Source: Arenicella chitinivorans (GTDB taxonomy: Bacteria; Pseudomonadota; Gammaproteobacteria; Arenicellales; Arenicellaceae). From it: a DNA stretch of 64,000 nt. The translations under genes and the position numbers were made by a program. The stretch is from NCBI RefSeq assembly GCF_014651515.1, contig NZ_BMXA01000001.1, positions 1,054,001 through 1,118,000 of the forward strand, written 5' to 3'. Positions within the stretch are counted from its first letter, which is position 1, and the number at the start of each line of letters is the position of its first letter. Of the stretch, positions 27,042-42,616 are shown piece after piece. The notes beneath the pieces are model-generated. The model saw only the letters and a list, made by a program, of their open reading frames with translations. It did no database searches and was not told where the DNA came from.

Positions 27042-27060
27042 AAACTTGACAAAACTTGAC
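27042..27060 (+). repeat. Two direct copies of AAACTTGAC at the island promoter
   Basis: AAACTTGAC occurs at 27042-27050 and 27052-27060, ten bases (one helical turn) apart, covering the -35 element of the next gene. A further TTGACA lies at 27021-27026. Likely binding sites for the XRE protein encoded just downstream. Confidence 0.5.
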
Positions 27061-27079: not shown

Positions 27080-28222
27080 ATGCAAAAAAGACTAAATACA
27101 GATAAAGCACAGCAGGCCATCGATATGGCAGGGTTAACCCAAACTGCCGTCGCTGATGCTTTAGGCGTAACCAAAGAAGCCGTTTCCCAGTGGCTTTTGC
27201 ACAAGTCTTTTCCACGCCCCAACAAGCTACTTCAGTTAGGCAAATTGCTGAATCTCTCTTTTGATGATTTAGTCATCAACGAAGATCCGCATGCCCCGAA
27301 AGTGGCATTCCGCAAAATGCGCGGTACCAAAACAAAGGATCACCATATCGAAAAAGCGCAAGAGATTGGCCGCTTTTTGCGTCACCTCGTGCCCTATCTG
27401 CCGTTTGACACCTTTGAAATGCCGCCGGTACTCAAGTCGCCGAGCTGTGATTATGACTATCTTCGAACGGTAACAGTGAAAGTCAGAGAAGATATTAATC
27501 TTGGCCCGATGGAGTGTGTGGATTTCACGCATTTGATTCGCCGCTTCTGCGAACTGCAGGCCGTTGTGGTTCCCGTTATGTGGGGAGCAAAACAGCGTCA
27601 TGAAAATGCGGTGCACATACACCTTCCTGACTCAGGAAGCACCTGGGTTTACCTGAATCTGGATACCAATATTCATGACTTCAAGTTCTGGATGGCACAT
27701 GAGTTGGGGCACTGTCTTTCGCCAAGCCTTGAGGGCGATGATGCTGAAGATTTTGCCGATGCGTTCGCCGCGAGCTTGCTTTACCCTCATGAATTAGCGG
27801 AGCAGGCCTACGAAGTGTTGGTTGAAAAGCCGTCGATTGCTGCAAAGATCAATACGTTAAAGCAGATGGCAGAGCAGCAGGTAATTTCCCCAAATACTAT
27901 CCTTCAGCAAGTTAACAAGTACGCAAAGCGGCTTGATAGAGCTGAAATTAAAATGGGTAATTCCTTTTTTGGTGCAGTAACCAAATTTAACCAGCAATTC
28001 CTAAATCTCAGCGAAGCCCTGTTTGGTGACAATGAGCTGGACGAACACGGCCACCCAAGCGCCCGTGACTACATCGAAAAAGTAGAAGGCGCATTTGAAA
28101 CTCCTTTCTTCGATATGCTTCGAAAATATCTAAAAGAGCGCGATAAAGGGCCAGGTTATGTTCAAACTGTGCTGGATATGCCACTCCTCGATGCACGGAG
28201 TATCCACGCAGAGTTGACCTGA
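27080..28222 (+). CDS. XRE-family regulator fused to ImmA/IrrE metallopeptidase
   Basis: A 380-aa protein. Residues about 8-60 form an XRE/Cro-type helix-turn-helix (LTQTAVADALGVTKEAVSQW). The rest is an ImmA/IrrE-type zinc protease with HELGH at 207-211 and DAEDFADAFAASLLYP after it, the usual third-ligand region. COG2856 proteins with this layout act as regulators or antitoxins that cleave a partner. I start at ATG 27080; a TTG eight codons upstream lies inside the promoter and cannot be on its transcript. The stop overlaps the next start (TGATG), coupling it to the PIN gene. First gene of the island. Confidence 0.88.
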   Translation: MQKRLNTDKAQQAIDMAGLTQTAVADALGVTKEAVSQWLLHKSFPRPNKLLQLGKLLNLSFDDLVINEDPHAPKVAFRKMRGTKTKDHHIEKAQEIGRFLRHLVPYLPFDTFEMPPVLKSPSCDYDYLRTVTVKVREDINLGPMECVDFTHLIRRFCELQAVVVPVMWGAKQRHENAVHIHLPDSGSTWVYLNLDTNIHDFKFWMAHELGHCLSPSLEGDDAEDFADAFAASLLYPHELAEQAYEVLVEKPSIAAKINTLKQMAEQQVISPNTILQQVNKYAKRLDRAEIKMGNSFFGAVTKFNQQFLNLSEALFGDNELDEHGHPSARDYIEKVEGAFETPFFDMLRKYLKERDKGPGYVQTVLDMPLLDARSIHAELT

Positions 28223-28773
28223 TGCCGCAATCGAAAATCCTCGTTGATACCAACGCCTACCTAAGGTTGGCCAAAACCATACGCCCCTTACTGTTTGTGC
28301 CCTTTGGTGACAACGAGTATTGCCTGTACATTCTGCCTGAACTGAATGACGAGCTCGGTACCAGAAAACTGCAAAGTAAGTTCCCATGGGTGGATGACGA
28401 GGAATTCGCCGAGAATCGCAAACACTTCCCCCAAATCGGCAAGAAGCAAAAGAAGTCCATCCAGCAAATCTTCGAATACGTATGGGATCATGTACAAACT
28501 GAATTATCTGGGCCGTCCCGTGTAGATGCCTGGTATATCGCCTATGCATTGGAATTGGGTGTTCCGCTAGTGACGGACGATCAGGATATGACCGAGCTGG
28601 CTAAAGCCTTCGATGCGCAAGTCATGCCAACCTTAGAGCTGCTCAAAATCATGCTGGACTGTGGCCATACAGACATGAAGACCATCAACGGCCTGGTCGA
28701 GTACTGGAAGTACTTTTCAGACATGCCTGCCAACTTCAAGGCCGACTACCAGCGCCTGTTTGGCGATCAATAA
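28222..28773 (+). CDS. PIN-like domain nuclease, probable toxin partner
   Basis: A 183-aa protein with the acidic layout of PIN ribonucleases: Asp9 in VDTNAY, Glu40/Glu44, Asp102 in RVDAWYIAYA and Asp119/Asp120 in LVTDDQDM. PIN proteins paired with a DNA-binding partner are usually toxins that cut RNA. Its ATG shares a base with the upstream stop codon, so it is co-translated with the XRE-ImmA gene, matching a toxin-antitoxin or guard pair. The target is unknown. The order (regulator first, nuclease second) and position at the head of a restriction island suggest an addiction or back-up role; that is inference. Confidence 0.75.
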   Translation: MPQSKILVDTNAYLRLAKTIRPLLFVPFGDNEYCLYILPELNDELGTRKLQSKFPWVDDEEFAENRKHFPQIGKKQKKSIQQIFEYVWDHVQTELSGPSRVDAWYIAYALELGVPLVTDDQDMTELAKAFDAQVMPTLELLKIMLDCGHTDMKTINGLVEYWKYFSDMPANFKADYQRLFGDQ

Positions 28774-28870: not shown

Positions 28871-29095
28871 ATGAGCGACCCCATATTGACCATCAAAGAC
28901 GTGGCCGATTACCTCAAGGTGAATGAACGGACCATATACCGTCTGGCCGCAAGTGGTGAACTACCGGGCTTTAAAGTGGGTAACTCCTGGCGATTCAAAC
29001 AGAGCGAGCTGGAGCAATACATCGCCGCCCAGCACAACCGCGCCGGTGTCTGCGAACTAACTAAATCACCAAGCAGTAAATCAGAAGATAACTAG
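28871..29095 (+). CDS. Small excisionase/MerR-like helix-turn-helix protein
   Basis: A 74-aa DNA-binding protein of the HTH_17 type (LTIKDVADYLKVNERTIYRL, then GFKVGNSWRFKQSELEQYI). Such proteins occur as excisionases, as phage regulators and as small controllers in restriction loci. I use ATG 28871, with GAG at suitable distance; a TTG five codons upstream is possible. The gene lies 12 bases before hsdM and has its own promoter-like region, so it probably heads the restriction operon and may control it. No integrase is present, which argues against a true excisionase. Confidence 0.8.
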   Translation: MSDPILTIKDVADYLKVNERTIYRLAASGELPGFKVGNSWRFKQSELEQYIAAQHNRAGVCELTKSPSSKSEDN

Positions 29096-29107: not shown

Positions 29108-31261
29108 ATGGCACAACTGGAAAACATCGAAGCAATTGAAAAACGCCTGTGGAAATCGGCTGATACCCTACGCGCCAACTCCGAGCTAGCCAGTAACGAA
29201 TACTTTTTGCCGGTGATGGGGCTGATCTTTCTGCGCCATGCCTACAGCCGCTATCTGGCGGTAAAAGACGAGATTGTCGCCACGCTGCCCAGTCGCGGAG
29301 GTAAAACCCGCGAGCTTACAAAAGAAGACTTCTCTAAAAAGAGCGCTATCTATCTAGAGCCCGAAGCGCAGTTTGATTACTTGATTGCCCTGACGGATGC
29401 CGATAATCGCGCCGAAGCCATCATTCATGCCATGGAGTCTATCGAGGCCGACTACACCAATCTTCGCAATCAGCTGCCGAAGCAGGAATACAACAACATT
29501 CCCAACGACGTGTTGGGCATGTTGCTGCGTACGCTAAACCCGGAAGAATTGAAAAAGGCTACGGGCGATATTTTTGGCCGTATTTACGAGTATTTTCTTA
29601 CCCAATTTGCCGATCAGGGCGCGCACGATGGCGGTGAATTTTTTACGCCTGTGTCATTAGTGCAATTATTGGTGAATGTGATTGAACCCGACCACGGCAA
29701 AATATTTGACCCGGCTTGCGGATCTGGAGGCATGTTCGTACAAAGCGCCCACTTTATGGAGCGTCACGCGCAAGATCCGCATGAACTCACCTTTTACGGA
29801 CACGAGAAAAACCGCGTCACCACACGCCTAGCCAAAATGAACCTCGCAGTACATGGCCTTGAAGGTAATGTGGAAGGTGGTGAAGCCGCCATTACCTACT
29901 ATAACGACCCTCACGAAGGCCTGTTCGGCACTGTCGACTATGTAATGGCTAACCCACCCTTTAATGTGGATGAAGTCGACGCCGATAAAATTAAAGGCGA
30001 TAAGCATCGCTTGCCTTTTGGCTTGCCGGGAGTGAATAAAAACAAAAAAGTTAGCAATGCCAACTACCTTTGGATTCAGTACTTTTATAGCTATTTGAAC
30101 GACACGGGCCGGGCGGGATTTGTTATGTCATCCCAGGCTTCCAGCGCCGGGCGGGACGAAGCTAAGGTGCGTGAGCAATTAGTTAAGTCTAGTCATGTGG
30201 ATATCATGGTCGATATTCGCGGCAACTTTTTTTACACACGTTCTGTGCCATGCCAGCTGTGGTTTTTAAATAAAAACAAGCCCGCGCATCTAAAAGACAA
30301 AGTGTTAATGTTGGATGCCCGCAACGTCTACCGCAAAGTCACCCGCAAGATTTACGATTTCAGCCCCGAGCAGCAGCAGAACCTGACCGCCGTGGTCTGG
30401 CTCTACCGTGGCGAAGGCGAGCGTTTTGTTGAATTGATAAAACACTACACCGACAAGTCAATTTTCGAAGCTCGCGATTGCGAAAAGTCTGAAGAATTAG
30501 CCTGCGAGCCGATACCCGACTTTATCACTCAGTTGGGAAAACTTAGCCAAGCCTTTCAACCTTTTATGGACAAGCTGGAGCAAGACGGCACCAGTGTTGA
30601 GCCCTATGTCGACTTCCTCAATGCCAAGGGCTCGGTCGAAGGCGGTTGGTCCGCGTTTCAAATCCTGACCAACGACCTGCAAAAATGGTGGAACGAATAC
30701 GAGTATAACGATGCTGCCAGTCTGCTGGACTTTATCGATAAAGATGTCTGCCTGAAAGACTTGGCCGAACAAAGTCGCAATCTGATTAAAGAAATCGATC
30801 TCGCCTACAAACTGGCAACCCGCGTAATTGAACTGGCCGAAGCCAATAACGCCAAAGACAGCGAACTGTGGGATAACAGCGTACTAAATAGCCGTGGTCA
30901 CGGTTCTAAAAAGGGTAACCTGAAAAAAAGCGCCGATCAGGCCCGCAAGCTCGCCGTAGAGCAACTCAAACAAGTACGCTACTTCTACAAGCAAGCCCAT
31001 TGGTTATTAAGCCGCTTCCCGGAAGGCAAGCTGTGCGATGTAGAAGGCCTGGTCAAACTGGTGGATATTAAAGATATAGAAGCTGCCGACTGGAGCCTGA
31101 CGCCCGGCCGCTATGTGGGTGTGGCGCCGGAAGAAGTGGATGAGGACTTCGATTTTGAAGAAACCTTGCACGATATTCATATTGAGCTCCAAGGCTTAAA
31201 TACCGAAGCCACAGAGTTAGCTGAAAAAATTGCCCGGAACTTCGAGGAGTTGGGGGTATGA
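29108..31261 (+). CDS. hsdM: Type I restriction-modification methyltransferase subunit
   Basis: N6-adenine methyltransferase subunit. Residues about 8-130 form the HsdM N-terminal helical domain. The SAM motif is DPACGSGG at 201-208 and the catalytic motif NPPF at 282-285. At 717 aa it is well above EcoKI HsdM (529), with a long segment of about 200 residues between MLDARNVYRKVTRK and the usual C-terminal end SLTPGRYVGV...FDFEE. That segment is helical and may be extra partner-binding surface. The four-base overlap with hsdS (ATGA) is standard for this operon type. Confidence 0.96.
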   Translation: MAQLENIEAIEKRLWKSADTLRANSELASNEYFLPVMGLIFLRHAYSRYLAVKDEIVATLPSRGGKTRELTKEDFSKKSAIYLEPEAQFDYLIALTDADNRAEAIIHAMESIEADYTNLRNQLPKQEYNNIPNDVLGMLLRTLNPEELKKATGDIFGRIYEYFLTQFADQGAHDGGEFFTPVSLVQLLVNVIEPDHGKIFDPACGSGGMFVQSAHFMERHAQDPHELTFYGHEKNRVTTRLAKMNLAVHGLEGNVEGGEAAITYYNDPHEGLFGTVDYVMANPPFNVDEVDADKIKGDKHRLPFGLPGVNKNKKVSNANYLWIQYFYSYLNDTGRAGFVMSSQASSAGRDEAKVREQLVKSSHVDIMVDIRGNFFYTRSVPCQLWFLNKNKPAHLKDKVLMLDARNVYRKVTRKIYDFSPEQQQNLTAVVWLYRGEGERFVELIKHYTDKSIFEARDCEKSEELACEPIPDFITQLGKLSQAFQPFMDKLEQDGTSVEPYVDFLNAKGSVEGGWSAFQILTNDLQKWWNEYEYNDAASLLDFIDKDVCLKDLAEQSRNLIKEIDLAYKLATRVIELAEANNAKDSELWDNSVLNSRGHGSKKGNLKKSADQARKLAVEQLKQVRYFYKQAHWLLSRFPEGKLCDVEGLVKLVDIKDIEAADWSLTPGRYVGVAPEEVDEDFDFEETLHDIHIELQGLNTEATELAEKIARNFEELGV

Positions 31262-32463
31262 GTTGGTCTGAAATGTCACTAGATCAGCTAGGGTTTGTAT
31301 CCAGAGGTCGATCTAGGCACAGGCCAAGAGATGCCGCTCATTTGTATGGTGGTCAGTATCCGTTTGTGCAGACAGGAGATGTGAAGCACGCTGGGCTGTA
31401 TCTAACAGATTACTCCCAAACTTACAGTGAAGAAGGCCTTGCACAAAGTAAGTTATGGCCGGTTGGTACTCTGTGTATAACGATTGCCGCAAATATTGCG
31501 GATACATCCATTCTTGCTATCGATGCTTGTTTTCCTGATAGCGTAATAGGGTTTATTCCTTATCCAGAGAAAGCAGACGCCCGTTTTATAAAATACCTTT
31601 TTGATGCTGTATTGAAGTTACAGTATCGGCAATTCACACAGGGAGCGGCGCAGGATAATCTGAGTCAAGCAAAGCTGCTGGCATTGAAATTCTTGGTGCC
31701 AGACGACGTAACGGAGCAGACGAGAATTGCCGACTTTATCGCGACCTACGACGACCTCATCGAAAACAACCGCCGCCGCATTCAGTTGCTGGAAGAATCC
31801 GCTCGCCTGCTGTATCAGGAATGGTTTGTTCACCTGCGCTTCCCCGGCCATGAGCAAGTTAAGATTATCGATGGTGTGCCGGAGGGGTGGGAGCCGACTC
31901 TCGTGCCAGATGTGATTGACGTTAATCCGAGAACCCCTGTCGAAAAAGGTAAAGAGATTTGGTATGTGCCCATGTCATCACTCTCCGAAACAGCGATGAC
32001 AGCTAACACGGCTGATTTTGAGAGGCGAACCAAACACACCAACGTTAAATTCAAAAAGAATGACGTCTTGTTAGCCCGGATTACTCCATGTTTGGAGAAC
32101 GGTAAAACAGGCTATGCCTATTTCCTTGCTGAAGATGAAGTGGCTTGTGGGTCTACAGAGTTCATCGTATTAAGAGGAAATCGAGTACCTTCGGAATTTG
32201 TCTACTGTTTAGCTCGATCTTATCCGTTTCGAGAGAACGCAATTAAAAGCATGACGGGTTCATCTGGTCGCCAGAGAGTCCAGAATTCTTGCTTTGACAA
32301 ATATGCTGTTCCCTTGCCCCCAAAGAGCATTTTGGATGAATTCGTACAGGTAGTTCAGAACAACTTCGATCAGGTTCGAAATTTAATGGCACAGAATGCC
32401 AAGCTAGCCCAAGCCCGCGACCTGCTGCTACCCAAACTTATGAGCGGCGAGCTGACTGTCTAA
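31258..32463 (+). CDS. hsdS: Type I restriction-modification specificity subunit
   Basis: DNA-recognition subunit, 401 aa, with two target-recognition domains. The first covers about residues 1-155 (PFVQTGDVKHAG), followed by the central conserved helix (TRIADFIATYDDLIENNRRRIQLLEESARLLYQEWF broken into its recognisable parts). The second begins about 200 (GVPEGWEP) and closes with a C-terminal helix ending LLLPKLMSGELTV. The two domains differ in sequence, so the target should be bipartite and asymmetric; it cannot be read from sequence. Translationally coupled to hsdM. The helicase-PRTase gene starts 14 bases after its stop. Confidence 0.94.
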   Translation: MSWSEMSLDQLGFVSRGRSRHRPRDAAHLYGGQYPFVQTGDVKHAGLYLTDYSQTYSEEGLAQSKLWPVGTLCITIAANIADTSILAIDACFPDSVIGFIPYPEKADARFIKYLFDAVLKLQYRQFTQGAAQDNLSQAKLLALKFLVPDDVTEQTRIADFIATYDDLIENNRRRIQLLEESARLLYQEWFVHLRFPGHEQVKIIDGVPEGWEPTLVPDVIDVNPRTPVEKGKEIWYVPMSSLSETAMTANTADFERRTKHTNVKFKKNDVLLARITPCLENGKTGYAYFLAEDEVACGSTEFIVLRGNRVPSEFVYCLARSYPFRENAIKSMTGSSGRQRVQNSCFDKYAVPLPPKSILDEFVQVVQNNFDQVRNLMAQNAKLAQARDLLLPKLMSGELTV

Positions 32464-32477
32464 ATCAAGGAGTGATA

Positions 32478-34574
32478 ATGAACCGTGCCCAAGCCCAACA
32501 ACTACTACAAACCGCGCTAGCCAATCCCGCCGCCGAATTCCGTGATGGCCAGTGGGAGGCGATTGATGCCTTGGTGAATCATCGGCAGAAGCTATTAGTG
32601 GTACAACGTACCGGTTGGGGTAAAAGCTCGGTCTATTTTATCAGCACCAAAATCTTCCGCGACAGAGGTATGGGACCCACCATTATTGTTTCGCCCTTGC
32701 TGGCTTTGATGCGCAATCAGATCGAGTCAGCGCAGCGTTTGGGCATTGTTGCTGCAACCATGAACTCCACCAATCAAAACGATTGGCAGGAGGTGACTCA
32801 ACGGATTTTGAATAATCAAGTCGACTGCTTACTTATTTCCCCTGAGCGATTGGCTAACGACAACTTTATCGAAACAGTCTTACAGCCTATTGCGGATCGT
32901 ATCGCCCTGATGGTGATTGACGAAGCACACTGTATTTCTGACTGGGGTCATGACTTTCGACCCGACTATCGCCGTATCGTGAATATTCTTCGTCAGTTGC
33001 CCGCCAATACACCAGTACTGGGTACTACGGCAACGGCGAATAACCGTGTCGTTGCGGATATTCAAACTCAGCTTGGAAATATTCAAATTCACCGTGGCCC
33101 TTTGACCCGGGAAAGCCTCGCATTACAAACCATGGTGCTGCCAGATCAGGCGTCCCGTTTGGCCTGGTTAGCCCAGGTGATCCCGTCGTTGCGGGGCACG
33201 GGGATTGTTTACACCTTAACAGTGCGTGACGCGGAGCAAGTCGCTGAATGGTTGGTTGCGAATGGCATAGACGCTAAGGCATATCACGGCAGTGTTGAAG
33301 CCGATGGTTTTGAAAACAGCAACGCCTTCCGCCAGCATCTGGAAGAGTTGCTACTCAACAACCAGTTAAAGGTATTGGTGGCCACCACAGCGTTGGGGAT
33401 GGGTTACGACAAACCGGATTTAAGCTTTGTAATCCACTATCAAGCACCGGGTTCTATCGTTGCCTATTACCAACAAGTGGGCCGTGCCGGGCGTGGTATT
33501 GATCACGCAGTTGGCGTATTGATGTCGGGTGTAGAAGATCAGGATATTCATCAGTTTTTCCGCGACTCGGCCTTTCCTTCAGAGGATCACGTGAATGAAA
33601 TTTTGCAGGTTTTGGAAAACAGCGATGGATTGTCACTGCGCAGCATTGAAGAGCAAACAAACTTACGTCACGGTCAGATTGAAAAAGTGCTGAAGCTTCT
33701 GAGTGTGGAAAACCCGGCTCCTGTCATCAAAGACGGCAGCCGCTGGGTTAGAACGCCCGTGCGGTATCAAATGGATCATGCCCGAATTGCACACTTAACC
33801 GGGCAGCGTGTGCAGGAATGGCAGGAGGTTCAGGCGTATCTGAATGATGCTGGCTGCAAAATGACCTTCTTGCGAAGGGCGCTGGACGATCACGATCCTA
33901 CGCCATGCGGTAAATGTTCGTCTTGCTTGGGCCGGCCTGTTATCAATGCACCAGTTGATCCCGCTTTGGCGCATCACGCAGGCACCTTCCTCAAACATGC
34001 GGAAATGGTGATCACTCCAAAAGCACAGGTAGCGGCCAATGCCTTTCTGGAATACGGCTTTCGCGGCAATCTACCCCAACCACTTCGAGCACAGGAGGGC
34101 CGTGTTTTATCCCGCTGGGGTGATGCCGGTTGGGGACGGACGGTTGCCGATAAAAAACATGCAGGGCGTTTCAGTGATGAATTGGTTGAGGCTATGGCGG
34201 AAATGATTCAACAGCGTTGGCAGCCCGACCCTGCTCCTCAGTGGGTGTGCTGCGTGCCGTCGCGAAATCATCCAGAATTGGTGCCGGATTTTGCACGCCG
34301 TCTGGCTGCGCGATTGGGTCTGCCGTTTGTGGATGCGGTTAGCAAAGTCAGAGACAATCAGCCGCAAAAAGGCCAACAGAATCGCTTCCACCAGTGCCGC
34401 AACTTGGATGGTGCGTTTGCGATTGATCAGCCGTTACCTGACACACCGGTTCTGTTGGTGGATGACATAGTGGACTCCGGTTGGACGCTAACGGTGATCG
34501 CAGCACTCTTACAGCAAGCAGGCTGCGGTGTGGTTTACCCCGTCGCGCTGGCTTCATCTTCGGTGAAAGACTAA
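32478..34574 (+). CDS. RecQ-like DNA helicase fused to a ComF-like phosphoribosyltransferase domain
   Basis: A 698-aa protein. The N-terminal two thirds form a superfamily 2 RecQ helicase: Walker A TGWGKSS near residue 45, DEAH at 148-151 in the RecQ signature IDEAHCISDWGHDFRP, GTTATA, TTALGMGYDKPD and QVGRAGRG. A zinc module follows with C460, C477, C480, C483. No HRDC domain follows; about 180 residues later the protein ends in a type I phosphoribosyltransferase domain with the PRPP loop VDDIVDSGWT at 661-670. RecQ proteins normally lack this. AAGGAG five bases before ATG 32478 decides the start. Its stop shares a base with the DprA-like start (TAATG). It lies between hsdS and hsdR, unusual for a type I locus. 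Confidence 0.9.
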   Translation: MNRAQAQQLLQTALANPAAEFRDGQWEAIDALVNHRQKLLVVQRTGWGKSSVYFISTKIFRDRGMGPTIIVSPLLALMRNQIESAQRLGIVAATMNSTNQNDWQEVTQRILNNQVDCLLISPERLANDNFIETVLQPIADRIALMVIDEAHCISDWGHDFRPDYRRIVNILRQLPANTPVLGTTATANNRVVADIQTQLGNIQIHRGPLTRESLALQTMVLPDQASRLAWLAQVIPSLRGTGIVYTLTVRDAEQVAEWLVANGIDAKAYHGSVEADGFENSNAFRQHLEELLLNNQLKVLVATTALGMGYDKPDLSFVIHYQAPGSIVAYYQQVGRAGRGIDHAVGVLMSGVEDQDIHQFFRDSAFPSEDHVNEILQVLENSDGLSLRSIEEQTNLRHGQIEKVLKLLSVENPAPVIKDGSRWVRTPVRYQMDHARIAHLTGQRVQEWQEVQAYLNDAGCKMTFLRRALDDHDPTPCGKCSSCLGRPVINAPVDPALAHHAGTFLKHAEMVITPKAQVAANAFLEYGFRGNLPQPLRAQEGRVLSRWGDAGWGRTVADKKHAGRFSDELVEAMAEMIQQRWQPDPAPQWVCCVPSRNHPELVPDFARRLAARLGLPFVDAVSKVRDNQPQKGQQNRFHQCRNLDGAFAIDQPLPDTPVLLVDDIVDSGWTLTVIAALLQQAGCGVVYPVALASSSVKD

Positions 34575-35962
34575 TGAATGTATCCCGCTTTTCATCAGCT
34601 GATGGCTCTTTACCAGCTGACGGCTCTTTGTCACCCACGGCGCAAGCGACCTTGCTGTTGACCAGTTACTTCTCAAAAGCCAGCAGCGAAAGCGCAAAAC
34701 CGCTGACCAATGCCGAATGGGGGCGGTTTGCCTTGTGGTTAAAGGAGAAATCCACCACACCTGCCGATCTGTTGGTGACCGACCCGAAAGCTTTGCTGCA
34801 GGGCTGGCACGATGCGCGTATCGGTGCGGAGCGAATCATTGAATTGCTGAACCGTGGCCACAGCCTCGCACTGGCCATGGAAAAATGGCAACGGGCTGGC
34901 CTCTGGGTGGTGACCCGTTCTGATCCAGAATATCCAAAACGCTTAAAGCAACGTTTGAAAACAAATTCCCCGCCAGTACTGTTTGGTTGTGGTAACAAAG
35001 CTTTGTTGAATGCCGGAGGTTTGGCGGTTATTGGCTCGCGCAATGCTAGTGAGGCTGATTTGGCTTTTACCGACAAAGTGGGTGTGAAAGCAGCAAAAGA
35101 GGGTATTGCTATTGTCTCAGGTGGTGCTCGTGGTGTCGATGAAACGGCAATGCTGGGTGCTATGAAACAAGGTGGTGTGTTGATCGGCGTGATGGCCGAT
35201 AGCCTGTTAAAAGCAGCGACCAGCAGTAAGTGGCGTAAAGGCTTGATGGATGATCATGCCGTGTTGGTATCGCCTTTTTATCCAGAGGCAGGATTCAGTG
35301 CTGGAAATGCCATGGCCCGCAACAAATACATCTATTGCTTGGCAGACAGCTCTCTGGTGATTCACTCGGGCAAAAAAGGCGGCACGCTAAACGGTGCAGA
35401 AGAAAATCTGAAAAAGGCATGGGTACCGCTGTGGGTTAAGCAGACAACGGACAAAGATGCGGCCAATGCCGATTTGGTCGCCAAAGGTGGCCGTTGGCTG
35501 GAGGCTGATACTGAAGCCTTCAAGATTTCGGAATTAATTTGCAATGAAGGTGGGCGCGCGAGTCAGGTGAAGGAACAAATGGGCGATCTCTTTTCCATGC
35601 CTGCACAGCCTGAGTTGTTTACTGAGACTGAGCCTGGCCCTGAGATTGAACCTGAGCATAAAAAGGAAGCTGTTGAGTCAGAGACCGAAAGTATCGTTAA
35701 CGAAAATCAGGCAAACATTGTTGTAAACTCAGGGAAAACTGCCGAAAGCGACGCTGCCCCATCAGGTCCTATCGATTTTTATCAGCTGTTTACCTCCGAG
35801 CTGCAGCGCTTGGCAGAGAAGCCAGTTACTGTCGAAGAATTAATTGAAAGCACTCAGCTTAATAAATCTCAGTTAACTGAATGGCTGAAACGAGCTGTTG
35901 ATGATGAGCAAGTAAAGAAGATCAATCGCCCTGTACGCTATCAAGTTAAGAACAAGAAATAG
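34574..35962 (+). CDS. DprA/Smf-like Rossmann protein with C-terminal winged helix
   Basis: A 462-aa protein. About 115-345 is a DprA-type nucleotide/ssDNA-binding fold with VIGSRNAS at 152-159, SGGARGVD at 182-189 and a late GGTLNGA. Compared with competence DprA, the usual AH after the GVD motif reads AM, and the RNRIIA segment reads RNKYIY, so it is a divergent branch. About 345-395 is an acidic low-complexity linker, and the last 70 residues look like a winged helix (TVEELIESTQLNKSQLTEWL). I start at ATG 34574, overlapping the helicase stop; a longer frame reaches into the helicase gene. DprA proteins protect ssDNA and load RecA; here the gene is tied to a helicase-PRTase and a restriction system. 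Confidence 0.85.
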   Translation: MNVSRFSSADGSLPADGSLSPTAQATLLLTSYFSKASSESAKPLTNAEWGRFALWLKEKSTTPADLLVTDPKALLQGWHDARIGAERIIELLNRGHSLALAMEKWQRAGLWVVTRSDPEYPKRLKQRLKTNSPPVLFGCGNKALLNAGGLAVIGSRNASEADLAFTDKVGVKAAKEGIAIVSGGARGVDETAMLGAMKQGGVLIGVMADSLLKAATSSKWRKGLMDDHAVLVSPFYPEAGFSAGNAMARNKYIYCLADSSLVIHSGKKGGTLNGAEENLKKAWVPLWVKQTTDKDAANADLVAKGGRWLEADTEAFKISELICNEGGRASQVKEQMGDLFSMPAQPELFTETEPGPEIEPEHKKEAVESETESIVNENQANIVVNSGKTAESDAAPSGPIDFYQLFTSELQRLAEKPVTVEELIESTQLNKSQLTEWLKRAVDDEQVKKINRPVRYQVKNKK

Positions 35963-35974
35963 AGGGAGTTACTC

Positions 35975-38900
35975 ATGGCCATGACAGAAGAAACCCTGGT
36001 TCAGGAAGTCACCGCAGACTACTTGCTGAATCAGTTGCAGTGGGATGAATCTGTTCTTGGCATGTATGAAAAGCTGGGTAAGGAAGGTGATTTAGGTCGG
36101 CTGTCAGAGCAAGAGGTGGTGTTAACCCGCCATTTGGGTGAGAAGCTGGTTGAGCTAAATCCTGGCTTGCCGGATGTCGCCTACCAGGAGGCATTGCGCG
36201 TGGTTTGTGAGATGCCAGCATCCACCAATATTGCTGCCGTGAATAAGGAGAAATATTCTCTTCATAAAAATGGCGTGGAAGTGAGCTTCCACAACGACAA
36301 AGGTGAGCGGGTAAAGAAGCGTCTTCGCCTGTTTGATTTTGATAATTACGAAAATAATCACTTTTTACTGGTCAGAGAGCTTTGGATTAAAGGTGATATT
36401 TATCGGCGCCGGGCAGACCTTGTCGGCTTTGTGAATGGCATTCCGCTGCTGTTTATGGAGGTGAAAAACGTTCACAAGGATATTCGTGCGGCCTATGAGC
36501 AAAATCTTGCCGATTACAAAGACACCGTCCCGCACCTGTTTTATCACAACGCCTTTATTATTTTGGGCAATGGCATTGACGCCAAGATTGGCTCCGTTTC
36601 CAGTAAATTTGAGCATTTCAATGATTGGAAGCGATTGAAAGAGAATGAGCCAGGTGTGGTTGATATGGAGACCTTGCTGAAGGGAACCTGTTCCAAAACT
36701 AACCTTATGGACATCTTTGAAAACTTCACCCTGTTTGACCAGAGCTCTGGCCGCTTGGCGAAAATCGTTGCCCGCAATCACCAATACCTTGGTGTTATCC
36801 GTGCAATTGATGCCGTTGTGAATCGAGGTGAGCGTTTGGGTAAGTTGGGGGTTTTCTGGCACACCCAGGGTTCTGGCAAGTCTTATTCGATTGTATTTTT
36901 CGCCCAGATGGTGCATCGAAAGCTGGGTGGCAACTATACCTTCATGGTTTTGACTGACCGGGAAGACCTGGATTCACAGATTTATAAAACCTTTGCAGGC
37001 TGTGGCTTAGTCGATAACGATAAAGACCCGTGCCGAGCGGGTAGCGGTAAAGACCTCAAAGCACTGATCGGCCAGCAAAAAGCCTTTGTGTTCACCCTCA
37101 TTCAAAAATTTAATGAAAAGGTAGACCCTGAAAAACCTTATTCCGAGCGCGACGACATTATCGTCATCACCGACGAAGCTCACCGCACGCAATATGGCAC
37201 TTTGTCGTTAAACATGCGCAACGCCTTGCCCAATGCCAGTTTTATCGGCTTCACCGGAACGCCATTATTTAAAGATGATGAGATAACCAAGAAGGTTTTT
37301 GGTGATTACATCTCTACCTATGACTTTCAGCGGGCTGTCGAGGATAAGGCGACAGTGCCGTTGTACTACGATGCCCGTGGTGAAGAGTTGGTATTTACCG
37401 ATGAAGATGGCAACGAGCACACGGTTGCCGACCCCAAAGGCATCAATGAGCGCATAGCGGAAAAGCTGGATGAGTTGGAAATTGAGGATGTAGACGTTCA
37501 ACAAAGGTTGGAGCGAGAGCTGAAGCGTGATTATCACATTATCACTGCAACCAGCCGACTGGATCAGATAGCACGTGACTTTGTGACTCATTATGCCAAC
37601 GCTTGGGAAACCGGCAAGGCGATGTTTGTGTGCCTCGACAAGATCACTTGTGTACGGATGCACAAATTGATCAATTTTTACTGGCAACAGGAAATTAAAA
37701 CCAAAGAAAAAGCACTTTTGTCGGCTACGGATGAGCAGGATCTAGCTTGGCGAGAGCGGCAATTGGCGTGGATGAAAGAAACGCTGATGGCGGTTGTGGT
37801 CAGTGAAGAACAAGGTGAAGTCGCCAAGTTCGAAAAATGGGGGCTGGATATCAAGCCTCACCGCCAGTTGCTTAAAGCAGGATTTGAACTGGCTGATGGC
37901 TCTCGACTTGACATGGAAGAAGCCTTTAAATCCAGTGAGCACCCATTCAGAGTGGCTGTCGTGTGTGCCATGTGGTTAACCGGGTTTGATGTGCCAACAC
38001 TTTCCACCCTTTATTTGGACAAGCCGTTGAAGGCGCATACCTTGATGCAAGCCATTGCCAGGGCAAATCGCGTAGCGGAAGGAAAGAACAACGGGCTGAT
38101 AGTGGATTACTGCGGGATACTGAAAAACCTGCGTAAAGCCTTGGCGACCTTCGCCGGTGCTGGCGACGAGGGTCATGGCGGAGGTGAGGGCGAAAATGAA
38201 CCCGCCAAGCCCAATGAAGAGTTGTTGGAAAGCCTGAACGAGTCGATCAGTTTTGTTGCCGAGTTTTTACGAAAGCATGATTTTGAACTAAGCCGGATTA
38301 TTACAGAAACAGGTTTTGCTAAAAATGCAGCGATTGCTCAAGCCAAGGAAATCATCAATCAAAATGACGAAACACGGAAACGTTTCGAGGTAATGGCCAG
38401 AGAGGTGTTCAACAAGTTTAAAGCCTGCATTAACGTGCCTGGCGTTAATGGCTATCGTGATATGCGCGATGCAATCAACGTACTCTATAAGAGTTTGCAG
38501 GCAGATAAAGAGAAAGCCGACATCTCCGATATTATGAAAGAGCTGTACGAAATTGTCGACGCTAGTATCGATACCACACATAAAGTCAAAGAGCCGAAAC
38601 CGGATGGTGATCGAATTTACGATATCAGCAAGATCGATTTTGAACGACTCCGCCAAGAGTTTTCTAGATCAGAGCGAAAGAATACTACAGTGCAATCGCT
38701 CAAGAATGCGGTTGAGAAGAAGCTAGCCCGGCTCATGATGGAGAACCCGTTACGTACTGATTATCAAGAGCACTACGAAAAATTGGTTAAGGAATATAAC
38801 CAGGAAAAGGATCGCGTTGTTATTGAAAAAACTTTTGAGGCACTGTTAAAACTGAATGAAGAGCTTTCTCATGAAGAGAAGCGCGCAATTAGGGAAGGCT

Positions 38901-39217
38901 TGGACGAGGAGTCTTTGGTATTGTTTGATCTCCTTAGTAAGCCGAATTTGCAGCCAAAAGAGATTGCCAAGATCAAACAAGTCGCCACTACGTTGTTGGC
39001 GACGCTAAAGGCAGAGCGGCTGAAAGTTGCGAACTGGCAGCAAAAAGAATCGACGCGTGACGCGGTTAAGCAGCAGATATTCGATTTTCTCTACGATGAA
39101 AGAACAGGGTTGCCCGTTGAGCAATATGAAGAGGATGAGATTTCAGATATCACTGAAAGAGTTTTTCTTCATATTTATAGAGCTTATCCGAAGCTTCCAT
39201 CGCCTATTTATGGTTAG
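35975..39217 (+). CDS. hsdR: Type I restriction endonuclease/translocase subunit
   Basis: Cleavage and translocation subunit, 1080 aa. The PD-(D/E)xK nuclease residues are Asp148, Glu162 and Lys164 (RRADLVG ... FMEVKN). The motor domain has Walker A GSGKS at 299-303 and DEAH at 400-403, with GFTGTP and QAIARANR further on. The C-terminal 300 residues are helical and should dock on the methyltransferase. AGGGAG lies at good distance before the ATG. It follows the DprA-like gene by 12 bases, so all five genes from hsdM form one operon. No frameshift or missing catalytic residue was seen, so the restriction enzyme looks intact. Confidence 0.96.
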   Translation: MAMTEETLVQEVTADYLLNQLQWDESVLGMYEKLGKEGDLGRLSEQEVVLTRHLGEKLVELNPGLPDVAYQEALRVVCEMPASTNIAAVNKEKYSLHKNGVEVSFHNDKGERVKKRLRLFDFDNYENNHFLLVRELWIKGDIYRRRADLVGFVNGIPLLFMEVKNVHKDIRAAYEQNLADYKDTVPHLFYHNAFIILGNGIDAKIGSVSSKFEHFNDWKRLKENEPGVVDMETLLKGTCSKTNLMDIFENFTLFDQSSGRLAKIVARNHQYLGVIRAIDAVVNRGERLGKLGVFWHTQGSGKSYSIVFFAQMVHRKLGGNYTFMVLTDREDLDSQIYKTFAGCGLVDNDKDPCRAGSGKDLKALIGQQKAFVFTLIQKFNEKVDPEKPYSERDDIIVITDEAHRTQYGTLSLNMRNALPNASFIGFTGTPLFKDDEITKKVFGDYISTYDFQRAVEDKATVPLYYDARGEELVFTDEDGNEHTVADPKGINERIAEKLDELEIEDVDVQQRLERELKRDYHIITATSRLDQIARDFVTHYANAWETGKAMFVCLDKITCVRMHKLINFYWQQEIKTKEKALLSATDEQDLAWRERQLAWMKETLMAVVVSEEQGEVAKFEKWGLDIKPHRQLLKAGFELADGSRLDMEEAFKSSEHPFRVAVVCAMWLTGFDVPTLSTLYLDKPLKAHTLMQAIARANRVAEGKNNGLIVDYCGILKNLRKALATFAGAGDEGHGGGEGENEPAKPNEELLESLNESISFVAEFLRKHDFELSRIITETGFAKNAAIAQAKEIINQNDETRKRFEVMAREVFNKFKACINVPGVNGYRDMRDAINVLYKSLQADKEKADISDIMKELYEIVDASIDTTHKVKEPKPDGDRIYDISKIDFERLRQEFSRSERKNTTVQSLKNAVEKKLARLMMENPLRTDYQEHYEKLVKEYNQEKDRVVIEKTFEALLKLNEELSHEEKRAIREGLDEESLVLFDLLSKPNLQPKEIAKIKQVATTLLATLKAERLKVANWQQKESTRDAVKQQIFDFLYDERTGLPVEQYEEDEISDITERVFLHIYRAYPKLPSPIYG

Positions 39218-40149: not shown

Positions 40150-41634
40150 TTAAGCAAACAGGCCGTGCAGATACCATTGGCGATTACTTCGGTCATAAAA
40201 AATCCACACTAAGCGGCCATTGCGTTGCCGGGCAATAAAGTAGTCGCGGCTTTGCAGCTTGGCCCACCAGTGACTGCTGATTCGTTGCGGGCCATGAATA
40301 ATGTTCAAGCTGCCATCTAATAGCGGTTGTTGCGCTTGTTGGCTTAGTCGTTGTGGTTGTTCTAACAGCCACAGCGGTTCGTCTTGCAGTACTTGGTTGG
40401 CGGTGTATTGCGCCCGTGTCTCACGCATACTGGTAGTCTGCAGGGCGCTACGTCGGCCGTTGGCCAGCTCGGGCAGGTGCTCAGATTCCGGTACAACGCG
40501 AAACAGTGCGGTTGGCCCGAGACGGTTGCTGAGCTTATCAAGCAGTTGATTGAGCTGCTCGGTATCCGGTGATGGGTCAAACAGGTCGTCATTAAATAAG
40601 GTGACGGGCACCAATTGTGTACTGCTGAGTTCAATGCTCGAAAAAGATCCGTCAAGCTGTATGCTGGCCAATTTAAGTTGGGTTAGTTGTTCAAATGTTG
40701 CGATGGCCTTGTCTGTTGATGTCAGCAGGTCGCGACTGCTGATGCCAATAGTCACGGTTTTAAGTAACCGATTGTTCTGGTGGTAGAAGCGCCAGGTAAA
40801 ACTGCGGCATACGAGCTGACGTAAGAGTAAAAATTGTGCCAGATCCGTTAACAAACGGGTTAACTGTTGTTCAATCCACTGTAAGTTATGGATTGGCTCG
40901 GCAAAGTCCACGCTGGCGTGAAATGTCTCCGGCGGCGTGACGGCGGTTTGCGGGTCCGGCACCAGCCCCCAAAACTGGTCTAAATAATTCAGTAAGGCTT
41001 TGCCAAACCGAGCACCGAGTTCCGGGCCGGGGATGGTCTGTAAGTCCCCCAAGCTGTCGAAGCCGCAGTTGTGCAGTTTTGTAATGGTCTTATGGTCGAT
41101 ATCGAGATGCTCAATACTGGCACTAACAAGCTCACTGGCAGTGTGACGGCGTAAGCGCGGGTCGGGCGTAAAACTGGCGACGTAGGCTGATTTTGGTGTG
41201 TCAGAAACGCCGTAGGATGCGGTAATCTTAAAGCTGAATAAGTCGTTATTAATTAAGTTATGAATGTGTTCTAAGCTTTTGAATAAGCTTATACTTTTTC
41301 CGATTTCAAGCAGTAGTGTGTGGTCATTGTAAATGCTGACCATGGACGTGAATCGATACGCCCAGTGACTGAGGCGCGTTAGTTTTTCGTCCTCTTTTTC
41401 AGGGGCGCGCTCCAGTATCTCTAAGTCAGCGTTCAGCATCAGGGCATGATTGACGCTCATTCCAGCCTGAATACCCGCGCGTTGAGCTGCGTGATTACAC
41501 TGCCAAATTTGATGTTGCCAACTGATCGCTGCAGCCTGCTCTGCATTCACCGCCACGCCCAAACTGTTGAGCGACAGATGGGTCAAGCGAATACAAAACC
41601 AGGTGTTTCCTGAGTGCGATGAACTGTTGGGCAT
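40150..41634 (-). CDS. imuB: ImuB, Y-family polymerase-like mutagenesis protein
   Basis: A 494-aa protein of the ImuB group, a Y-family fold that acts as scaffold in damage-induced mutagenesis and is not itself a polymerase. The N-terminal block where active Y-family enzymes have the first catalytic Asp reads FCIRLTHLSLN, without the acid, as expected for ImuB. The little-finger-like region and the C-terminal SRDYFIARQRNGRLVWIFYD segment match the family. It starts six bases after imuA with GTGAG as ribosome-binding site. The third partner, DnaE2, is not encoded beside it: the next gene converges from the other strand. Confidence 0.88.
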   Translation of the reverse strand: MPNSSSHSGNTWFCIRLTHLSLNSLGVAVNAEQAAAISWQHQIWQCNHAAQRAGIQAGMSVNHALMLNADLEILERAPEKEDEKLTRLSHWAYRFTSMVSIYNDHTLLLEIGKSISLFKSLEHIHNLINNDLFSFKITASYGVSDTPKSAYVASFTPDPRLRRHTASELVSASIEHLDIDHKTITKLHNCGFDSLGDLQTIPGPELGARFGKALLNYLDQFWGLVPDPQTAVTPPETFHASVDFAEPIHNLQWIEQQLTRLLTDLAQFLLLRQLVCRSFTWRFYHQNNRLLKTVTIGISSRDLLTSTDKAIATFEQLTQLKLASIQLDGSFSSIELSSTQLVPVTLFNDDLFDPSPDTEQLNQLLDKLSNRLGPTALFRVVPESEHLPELANGRRSALQTTSMRETRAQYTANQVLQDEPLWLLEQPQRLSQQAQQPLLDGSLNIIHGPQRISSHWWAKLQSRDYFIARQRNGRLVWIFYDRSNRQWYLHGLFA

Positions 41635-41640
41635 GATAAC

Positions 41641-42468
41641 TCACTGCACGTTTGGTAAGGCAGATAAGGAGGCCAGTACCGTTACGGAGGCTTGCTGCCA
41701 TGACTGATGATGAGTCTCCAATTGGGCGGGTAGTCGTGGTGCCTGAATCCCGTTCTTCTGTGGCAACAGGTGTGCTGGCAGACGTTGCCAGTTCTCGTAA
41801 TGTGGTGGCAGCAATAATGTGCATTGTTGCCCGCCCCAGCCATTGGGTTGTTTCAGGATGTGTAATTTGAGCCTGCTGAAAGAATCTGACTGCAGGCGCA
41901 CACGCAGACCGGCGGCTGAGGATTGTTTAAGACAATCGCTGTGTCGGAATAAAACATGCCAAGTATTGGTGCTTTCGGCCGCTAGCTGCAAGCGCCGTAA
42001 TTCTCGCGTGTTTAAATTATAATTCCCAGTCCAGCAGAAAACGGCGGCACAGCAATCCGCAAGGAGACTCTGCTCCGCAGACCATAGAATGTCCTGAATA
42101 TTGTTGAGCTGTAAAATGGTTAATTGGCTGACGTTGACCTTTGCTTTTTCAAATGCGGGCGCAAAAGGTAGGAAGGGTGGGGCAATCCACATAATGGTTT
42201 GTTGAGGATGGCGCTGTTGTAAGGCGCGCAGGGCGGGCATGAGTAATCGTAATTCCCCCAGTCCGGCTTGCGACAAGCCCAGCTCGGTGATGCTGTTGGT
42301 TGGCCAGCCTTGCCCATGTAATTGCTGGTTGAGTGCGGTAAACCCAGTGTCCAGAGTGCGTGACTGCCTAGTTTGGGGTTTTTGCGTGCCACGCCACAGT
42401 TTGCCGCTGCGCTGAATGGCATTAAGGCTGGGTTTTGAATCAGTTGATTTGCTGTCATGGTTCGGCAT
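41641..42468 (-). CDS. imuA: ImuA, RecA-like mutagenesis protein
   Basis: A RecA-fold partner of ImuB. The segment LDTGFTALNQQLHGQGWPTNSITELGL corresponds to the start of the RecA/SulA-like core, and the family's usual GxGE-type loop appears as GLGELRLL. I use ATG 42468 (275 aa) in place of one 22 codons upstream, because a TATACT -10 element at 42475-42480 puts the transcript start at about 42468. In other bacteria imuA-imuB is induced by LexA; I see no clear LexA box here. Confidence 0.85.
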   Translation of the reverse strand: MPNHDSKSTDSKPSLNAIQRSGKLWRGTQKPQTRQSRTLDTGFTALNQQLHGQGWPTNSITELGLSQAGLGELRLLMPALRALQQRHPQQTIMWIAPPFLPFAPAFEKAKVNVSQLTILQLNNIQDILWSAEQSLLADCCAAVFCWTGNYNLNTRELRRLQLAAESTNTWHVLFRHSDCLKQSSAAGLRVRLQSDSFSRLKLHILKQPNGWGGQQCTLLLPPHYENWQRLPAHLLPQKNGIQAPRLPAQLETHHQSWQQASVTVLASLSALPNVQ

Positions 42469-42474
42469 ACCCAA

Positions 42475-42504
42475 AGTATAGTATGAATAATGTACAAAAT
42501 TCAA
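42475..42504 (-). promoter_or_regulatory. Candidate promoter of imuA-imuB, leaderless
   Basis: On the minus strand TTGAAT (42499-42504), 18-base spacer, TATACT (42475-42480). The predicted transcript start falls on or beside the ATG at 42468. No CTG-N10-CAG LexA box overlaps it. Confidence 0.4.
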
Positions 42505-42616
42505 ATGGCGCAGAAGTTTATTGTACTGCGGCAAGCAAGTCCGCAGAATGGATATTTTAAATTGTTTATAATCAGTAGCTTAAGTTAATTTTTTGAACTG
42601 AAATACAGGGTAGAAA

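Follow-up and report, generated by a model that had tools for sequence, protein, structure and literature searches.

The genetics of the helicase-phosphoribosyltransferase (PRTase) protein RqlH and its partner RqlI have been described for the pair of Escherichia coli F11 (PMC4670107). RqlH without RqlI caused SOS induction, filamentation, and mutation, and both growth inhibition and SOS induction were lost upon deletion of the PRTase domain, D663A substitution, or a four-residue change around D663, with modest effects on viable counts persisting in the point mutants at D663. The PRTase domain alone was nontoxic, and toxicity required other parts of RqlH, while K49A and D148A altered the phenotype in a complex manner, so that helicase mutants were not simply inactive. 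Coimmunoprecipitation of RqlH with RqlI, which restrains it, was abolished when the PRTase was removed, and deletion of rqlI at the native locus impaired growth and caused DNA stress under low oxygen in an rqlH-dependent manner (PMC4670107). As to defense, protection by an E. coli PsyrTA was undetectable under the conditions tested, and the expressing strain grew poorly (PMC12409345).

Such gene sets have already been linked to ComFA/ComFC/DprA and to ShosTA (PMC5512222, PMC9122126). ShosT reportedly acts as both a PRTase and a pyrophosphatase, perturbs purine metabolism, and is triggered by T7 Gp0.7 (PMC12593503). PsyrTA is described as underrepresented in defense islands and as colocalizing with other systems when it is inside them (PMC10924106). 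In a published type I island of E. coli, darTG2, which modifies single-stranded DNA, lies between hsdS and hsdR, and this gap has been suggested as a site for defense modules (PMC12255303).

Here, we analyzed a window of 64,000 nucleotides, by which we mean the whole stretch studied, from Arenicella chitinivorans (contig NZ_BMXA01000001.1). A sequence-only reading of this DNA had described a helicase-PRTase fusion; the same architecture is already published as RqlH/PsyrT and hence is not new. That reading did not include the DprA-like downstream partner, the toxin-antitoxin nature of the pair, and the surrounding type I operon, all of which are identified below.

Helicase Core and Zinc Region of PsyrT

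The psyrT (rqlH) gene occupies positions 32478 to 34574 on the plus strand and encodes 698 amino acids; an alternative GTG at 32472 is still within the open frame. The protein consists of a RecQ-like helicase (approximately residues 19 to 355), a RecQ C-terminal and zinc region (to approximately residue 484), and a ComF-type PRTase (approximately residues 500 to 698), and the PADLOC PsyrT model matched residues 2 to 698 with 1062 bits. The helicase core claimed previously was confirmed by the NCBIfam RecQ-family model (residues 19 to 355; 246.5 bits against a cutoff of 219.8) and by the Pfam families DEAD (86.2 bits) and Helicase_C (53.9 bits), both above their cutoffs. For conservation analysis, we used 87 distinct PsyrT proteins, including that of the window, that reach the C terminus and have a partner gene nearby, drawn from the nearest relatives and from further loci of genomes and plasmids. 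The Walker A lysine K49 and the DEAH aspartate D148 were found in all 87 of these aligned proteins.

The proposal of a four-cysteine zinc module held in part: C460, C477, C480, and C483 are zinc-type cysteines at the claimed positions, but Pfam RecQ_Zn_bind reached only 17.9 bits, under its cutoff of 25. Each of these cysteines was present in 84 of the 87 paired proteins, and all four were absent from the other three (L094, L098, and L100). Since these three retain the PRTase, the zinc module is dispensable for the helicase-PRTase architecture. We also observed that PsyrT of the window shares less than 60% identity with those of L089, L049, and L050 over most of residues 255 to 529, with stretches of 96 to 100% identity on both sides. 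Thus, psyrT looks mosaic at the sequence level, as if a segment covering the second helicase lobe, the RecQ C-terminal region, and the zinc region had been exchanged in a manner resembling the recognition domains of hsdS. DNA identity between the window and the E. coli island was 93% for hsdR and 87% for psyrA.

Both the housekeeping RecQ equivalog and the DpdF equivalog of the dpd system match the helicase part of PsyrT, so we considered whether the gene is merely a standalone RecQ or a DpdF-type helicase. Their scores (279 bits against a cutoff of 640.2 and 138.7 bits against 550, respectively) fall well under the cutoffs, in contrast to the 1062 bits of the PsyrT model, and HRDC gave no match among the seven Pfam families reported up to an E value of 1. 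Besides, another RecQ-like gene exists in the same genome (C3:242289-243290), matching the helicase part of the PsyrT model with 304.6 bits. Both candidates were rejected, and this explanation is hardly credible.

PRTase Domain and Predicted Fold

In accordance with the claim that a PRTase replaces HRDC at the C terminus, Pfam Pribosyltran matched residues 605 to 686 with 30.6 bits (cutoff, 26.3). The PRPP loop reads VDDIVDSGWT at residues 661 to 670 (positions 34458 to 34487, plus strand) and is intact, as had been noted. Within it, D662, D663, S667, W669, and T670 were invariant in all 87 paired proteins, and position 668 varied (G in 72, R in 8, and A in 7). Conservation of the key loop residues in homologues thus did not refute the sequence-only reading. 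The same invariance was found for P594 and S595 of the PPi loop and for Q630, N635, N642, D644, and G645 of the flexible loop, both loops being named by analogy with ComFC. Because the pocket residues are invariant throughout the paired set, the PRTase match and the PRPP loop are not due to chance.

An AlphaFold2 model of residues 440 to 698, built from 59 aligned sequences (pLDDT, 88.5), was compared with solved structures, a check that the sequence-only reading had proposed. The C terminus was predicted to adopt a PRTase fold, which likewise did not refute that reading, with ComF (7p0h; Z, 14.8; root mean square deviation [rmsd], 3.7; 168 residues) as the best match, followed by ShosT (8zvd, Z 11.4, rmsd 3.5, 159 residues; 8zvc, Z 11.1, rmsd 3.7, 164 residues) and adenine PRTases (Z of about 10.7). 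Orotate PRTases (Z of 9.9 and below) were outscored by all of these and were rejected as the nearest fold. The ComF protein of the same genome also aligned with the PRTase region, an N...AF and a DD pattern being common to both. The ComF family model TIGR00201 gave 22.2 bits on whole PsyrT, not reaching its cutoff of 233.55, yet ComF is the nearest fold.

The reaction of this PRTase is putative and unproven. The suggested coupling of unwinding to a nucleotide reaction fits the reported RqlH genetics (PMC4670107), but the reaction half of that suggestion has the same putative status. The closest mechanistic precedent is ShosT, ShosTA likewise combining a PRTase toxin with a DprA-like antitoxin whose folds match the PsyrT PRTase and PsyrA, respectively. 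ShosT differs in apparently having no RecQ helicase, as judged from its 412-residue chain and the description consulted (PMC9122126). The ShosT reaction may not transfer to PsyrT, given that the modeled fold matches ShosT less well than ComF.

The closeness to ComF favors another explanation, in which PsyrT is a DNA repair or DNA uptake helicase, its PRTase serves solely as a sensor of PRPP or a nucleotide, and the toxicity is an artifact of an unbalanced pair. PurR, too, binds PRPP. ComFC binds PRPP and nucleotides and interacts with DprA and, in Streptococcus pneumoniae, with ComFA (PMC9005727). The ComFA/ComFC/DprA set of natural transformation shares with the present locus the combination of a helicase with a ComF-type PRTase and a DprA partner, a link drawn in published work (PMC4670107, PMC5512222). 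The present locus differs from ComFA/ComFC/DprA in its RecQ-type helicase, the fusion of the PRTase, and the defense island setting. Against a pure sensor, the deletion of rqlI at its native locus was harmful through rqlH (PMC4670107), so the toxicity does not arise from overexpression alone, and the pair here shares its island with restriction genes. Even with the solitary actinobacterial relatives described below, which speak for it, we regard the sensor explanation as quite unlikely.

The DprA-Like Partner PsyrA

The ATG of psyrA (rqlI; positions 34574 to 35962, plus strand) overlaps the psyrT stop codon by one base. Its product is a DprA-like (SLOG/Rossmann) protein with a C-terminal winged helix, and it scored 575 bits with the PADLOC PsyrA profile versus 96 bits with ShosA, a further difference from ShosTA. 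The structure model (pLDDT, 81.5; the linker spanning model residues 325 to 396 is of low confidence) matched DprA best (3maj; Z, 26.8; rmsd, 3.4; 282 residues) and then ShosA (8zva; Z, 24.3; rmsd, 3.5; 273 residues), after which came Moco carriers and LOG-type proteins, and its last 60 residues matched a winged helix (5j6x; Z, 9.4; rmsd, 1.2; 60 residues). The arrangement is stable among relatives: PsyrA was encoded downstream of psyrT in 77 of the best 80 loci out of 282 stretches encoding PsyrT relatives, and in the remaining 3 the contig stops in psyrT or right at its end. In 88 of 91 paired loci, the PsyrA match started no more than about 52 nucleotides after the psyrT stop.

On the basis of these sequence matches, the helicase-PRTase and its DprA-like partner are the known toxin-antitoxin pair PsyrTA, also named RqlHI. 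The pair shares with that of E. coli F11 the gene order, full-length profile matches, and even the numbering of K49, D148, and D663. It differs in its context, since in F11 the two genes reportedly form an operon of their own, apart from the neighbors (PMC4670107), whereas here the pair is nested in the order hsdM-hsdS-psyrTA-hsdR.

The model of PsyrA also bears on a DarTG-like explanation, in which the helicase exposes DNA bases for phosphoribosylation by the PRTase, and PsyrA either takes the modification off or directs its repair. The published model, in which the PRTase alters a nucleotide in DNA and RqlI resolves it (PMC4670107), the position of darTG2 between hsdS and hsdR in the E. coli island (PMC12255303), and the resemblance of PsyrA to LOG-family phosphoribohydrolases (9us2, Z 13.8, rmsd 3.3, 164 residues; 7w2i, Z 13.6, rmsd 3.0, 150 residues) are all in its favor. 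However, DprA is a far better match to PsyrA than LOG (Z of 26.8 versus about 14), a DNA adduct is not reported in the portions of the RqlHI literature consulted, and the reported activity of ShosT is on the nucleotide pool (PMC12593503). We therefore assign this explanation a low probability. A LOG protein was not found in the same genome at an E value of 1e-10.

The Host Restriction Operon and Its Island

All three components of a type I restriction-modification system surround psyrTA on the plus strand: hsdM (positions 29108 to 31261; modification subunit, 717 amino acids), hsdS (31258 to 32463; specificity subunit), and hsdR (35975 to 39217; restriction subunit), so that hsdM-hsdS-psyrT-psyrA-hsdR form a tightly spaced operon. 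Upstream, on the same strand, are a gene for a 74-amino-acid HTH_17 protein (28871 to 29095) and a pair of genes encoding an HTH protein with weak similarity to M78 peptidases (27080 to 28222; frame open from a TTG at 27056; best PADLOC match RmrA, 47 bits) and an adjoining PIN-like protein (28222 to 28773; Pfam PIN under its cutoff), the latter occurring with the island in relatives. The HTH and PIN-like genes at 27080 to 28773 might constitute a second toxin-antitoxin pair. The minus-strand gene pair beside the island (40150 to 42534) we take by eye to be imuB/imuA-like mutagenesis genes.

The set of HTH, PIN, hsdM, hsdS, psyrT, psyrA, and hsdR genes was complete in 12 of the best 80 loci, 9 of which also contained the small HTH gene; in one of the 12 (L028), the hsdR match spans only 577 amino acids. 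The organization resembles the RptR-HsdMS-DarTG2-HsdR (RRDM) island of enteropathogenic E. coli (PMC12255303) in that a toxin-antitoxin pair separates hsdS from hsdR and a small HTH gene precedes the operon, the difference being darTG2 there and psyrTA here. The 74-amino-acid HTH_17 gene occupies the position of rptR, a likeness of position only. To qualify as RptR regulated, a complete type I system should be preceded by an RptR homologue and two or more 6-bp sites; here, the four RptR site types were represented by one TATATA only within 100 bp upstream of this gene. This speaks against such regulation, as promoters with a single site in the RptR work were without any complete type I system (PMC12255303).

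PsyrT was absent at an E value of 1e-110 from all 17 same-genus genomes scanned. The island is flanked here by ssb and an enoyl-CoA hydratase gene, and because these two genes adjoin each other in two of the seven same-genus loci examined, the island looks like an insertion. Direct repeats marking the island ends were not found, and scans for promoters and terminators gave values close to those of shuffled sequence (10 versus 13.1 and 19 versus 13.9).

Nesting in Methylation-Based Defense Operons

We defined nesting as the presence of components of one host system on both sides of psyrTA and on the same strand. Among the 77 paired loci from the best 80 of 282, of which 55 have at least 2.5 kb on both sides, 17 were nested: 13 in type I systems (hsdS before and hsdR after), 2 in BREX (brxC before and pglX after; L062 and L063), and 2 in Hma (hmaB before and hmaC after; L061 and L068). 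One-sided neighbors were BrxL before the pair (L057), a type IIG enzyme (L066) or type III methylases (L070 and L072) after it, and type I R subunits (L022, L056, and L073), and many of the 77 loci had other or unassigned neighbors. Fragments of hsdM, hsdS, hsdR, or hmaB lie beside psyrTA in seven loci (L012, L018, L019, L020, L025, L034, and L078) and may be scars of past nesting. Outside the best 80, an Acinetobacter plasmid (L118) carries pglX-psyrTA-DUF262-pglZ; recQ, dprA, and duf262 genes, not called PsyrTA, appear in Acinetobacter baumannii BREX regions according to a figure legend (PMC10117892).

As a control, we viewed nine paired loci with wider flanks, some on short contigs, whose genomes had been sampled across the phylum or from relatives. 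None of the nine had a type I, BREX, or Hma relative, and 2 of 10 neighboring ORFs tested matched defense families (AbiLi-like and RT-protease-like). Because none of these more evenly drawn loci was nested and the best 80 are the nearest relatives, nesting is a trait of the branch around the window rather than one demonstrated for the whole family. In the open-access PsyrTA literature consulted in part, including PMC12839542, we found no description of psyrTA nesting, which is a weak negative.

In 16 other hsdR relatives (L135 to L150; 39 to 70% identity; 369 genomes), the gene before hsdR was varied and often toxin-like: hsdS was directly before hsdR in 4, and elsewhere a RhuM/Fic, Fic, PIN, AAA-DUF4143, or HATPase_c_4 protein was encoded there or the gene was unassigned, with no psyrA before hsdR within the up to 1.5 kb viewed. 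This variety is in line with the proposal that defense modules occupy the gap between hsdS and hsdR (PMC12255303).

Distribution and Relatives without a Partner

The genome scan yielded the 282 stretches mentioned above, with the best 80 loci representing the nearest part of the family. At an E value of 1e-110, the PsyrT model matched 17 of 299 genomes over the phylum, and 10 of the matches, including that of this genome, span the model nearly to its end. At the DNA level, 54 of 5426 E. coli genomes contained psyrTA with a coverage of at least 80%, and 53 of 5426 contained hsdR, one island copy being on a plasmid typed as conjugative. Among phages, 24 records matched, none with 80% coverage of the full-length query.

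The RqlH of Mycobacterium smegmatis is without a partner, and in our set 20 of 112 loci had no partner match nearby, none by profile, several of them ending inside or right after psyrT. From these, we analyzed the nine in which the PRTase region could be aligned and the contig continues past psyrT, leaving out L075, which has the region but whose contig ends at the gene. D662 and D663 were both kept in seven of the nine, and the set of Q630, N642, D662, D663, and G or A at 668 was complete in none of them, versus 79 of the 87 paired proteins. The direction of this pocket loss fits a toxin role for the paired proteins, but it is too weak to conclude from, since the nine include five actinobacterial proteins and two more from a single genus, and eight paired proteins have R668. 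Two partnerless relatives (L097 and L099) keep most of the pocket, and their genomes contain a single, lower-scoring DprA-type match elsewhere. Of the actinobacterial RqlH proteins without a nearby partner (L091, L093, L113 to L116, and L119), five keep D663 and are without W589, Q630, and N642; in two Rhodococcus RqlH proteins, the C terminus does not align to the PRTase. The annotated actinobacterial relatives are solitary and lie beside ordinary metabolic genes, the observation that favors the sensor explanation.

Proposed Role of the Pair

Taken together as one joint reading, it is quite probable that the gene encodes the toxin PsyrT of a PsyrTA pair set in a type I operon and that the pair serves abortive defense, acting on PRPP or nucleotides near DNA, with PRPP-dependent damage to nucleotides or DNA by the PRTase. 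The helicase would bring the PRTase to DNA, and in healthy cells PsyrA would keep the PRTase inactive. Its release would follow phage infection or the entry of foreign DNA, and the released PRTase might then use PRPP to harm DNA or the pool of nucleotides, in the way described for ShosT. Placed between hsdS and hsdR, psyrTA would act as a second line behind restriction and possibly be coexpressed with it. Points against this reading are the existence of partnerless relatives, R668 in 8 of the 87 paired proteins, the weaker fold match to ShosT than to ComF, the nontoxicity of the isolated PRTase domain and the complex phenotypes of helicase mutants (PMC4670107), and the lack of protection and the poor growth in the conditions reported for E. 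coli PsyrTA (PMC12409345).

A more far-reaching possibility is that psyrTA is an interchangeable guard cassette, repeatedly placed inside methylation-based defense operons (type I restriction, BREX, and Hma) in one branch, which fires when the host system is lost or is blocked by a phage, its PRTase hitting DNA or nucleotides at the helicase and its DprA-like partner reversing or repairing the effect. We consider this unlikely, having lowered an already small initial estimate slightly because none of the nine control loci was nested.

The helicase-PRTase fusion by itself changes little, as it is already known. The useful part is the nesting, which points to a coupling between methylation-based immunity and one or more branches of PsyrTA and makes toxin release upon inhibition of restriction or BREX directly testable. 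Furthermore, with its compact gene pair in a defined operon, the locus is suited to testing the PRTase activity.
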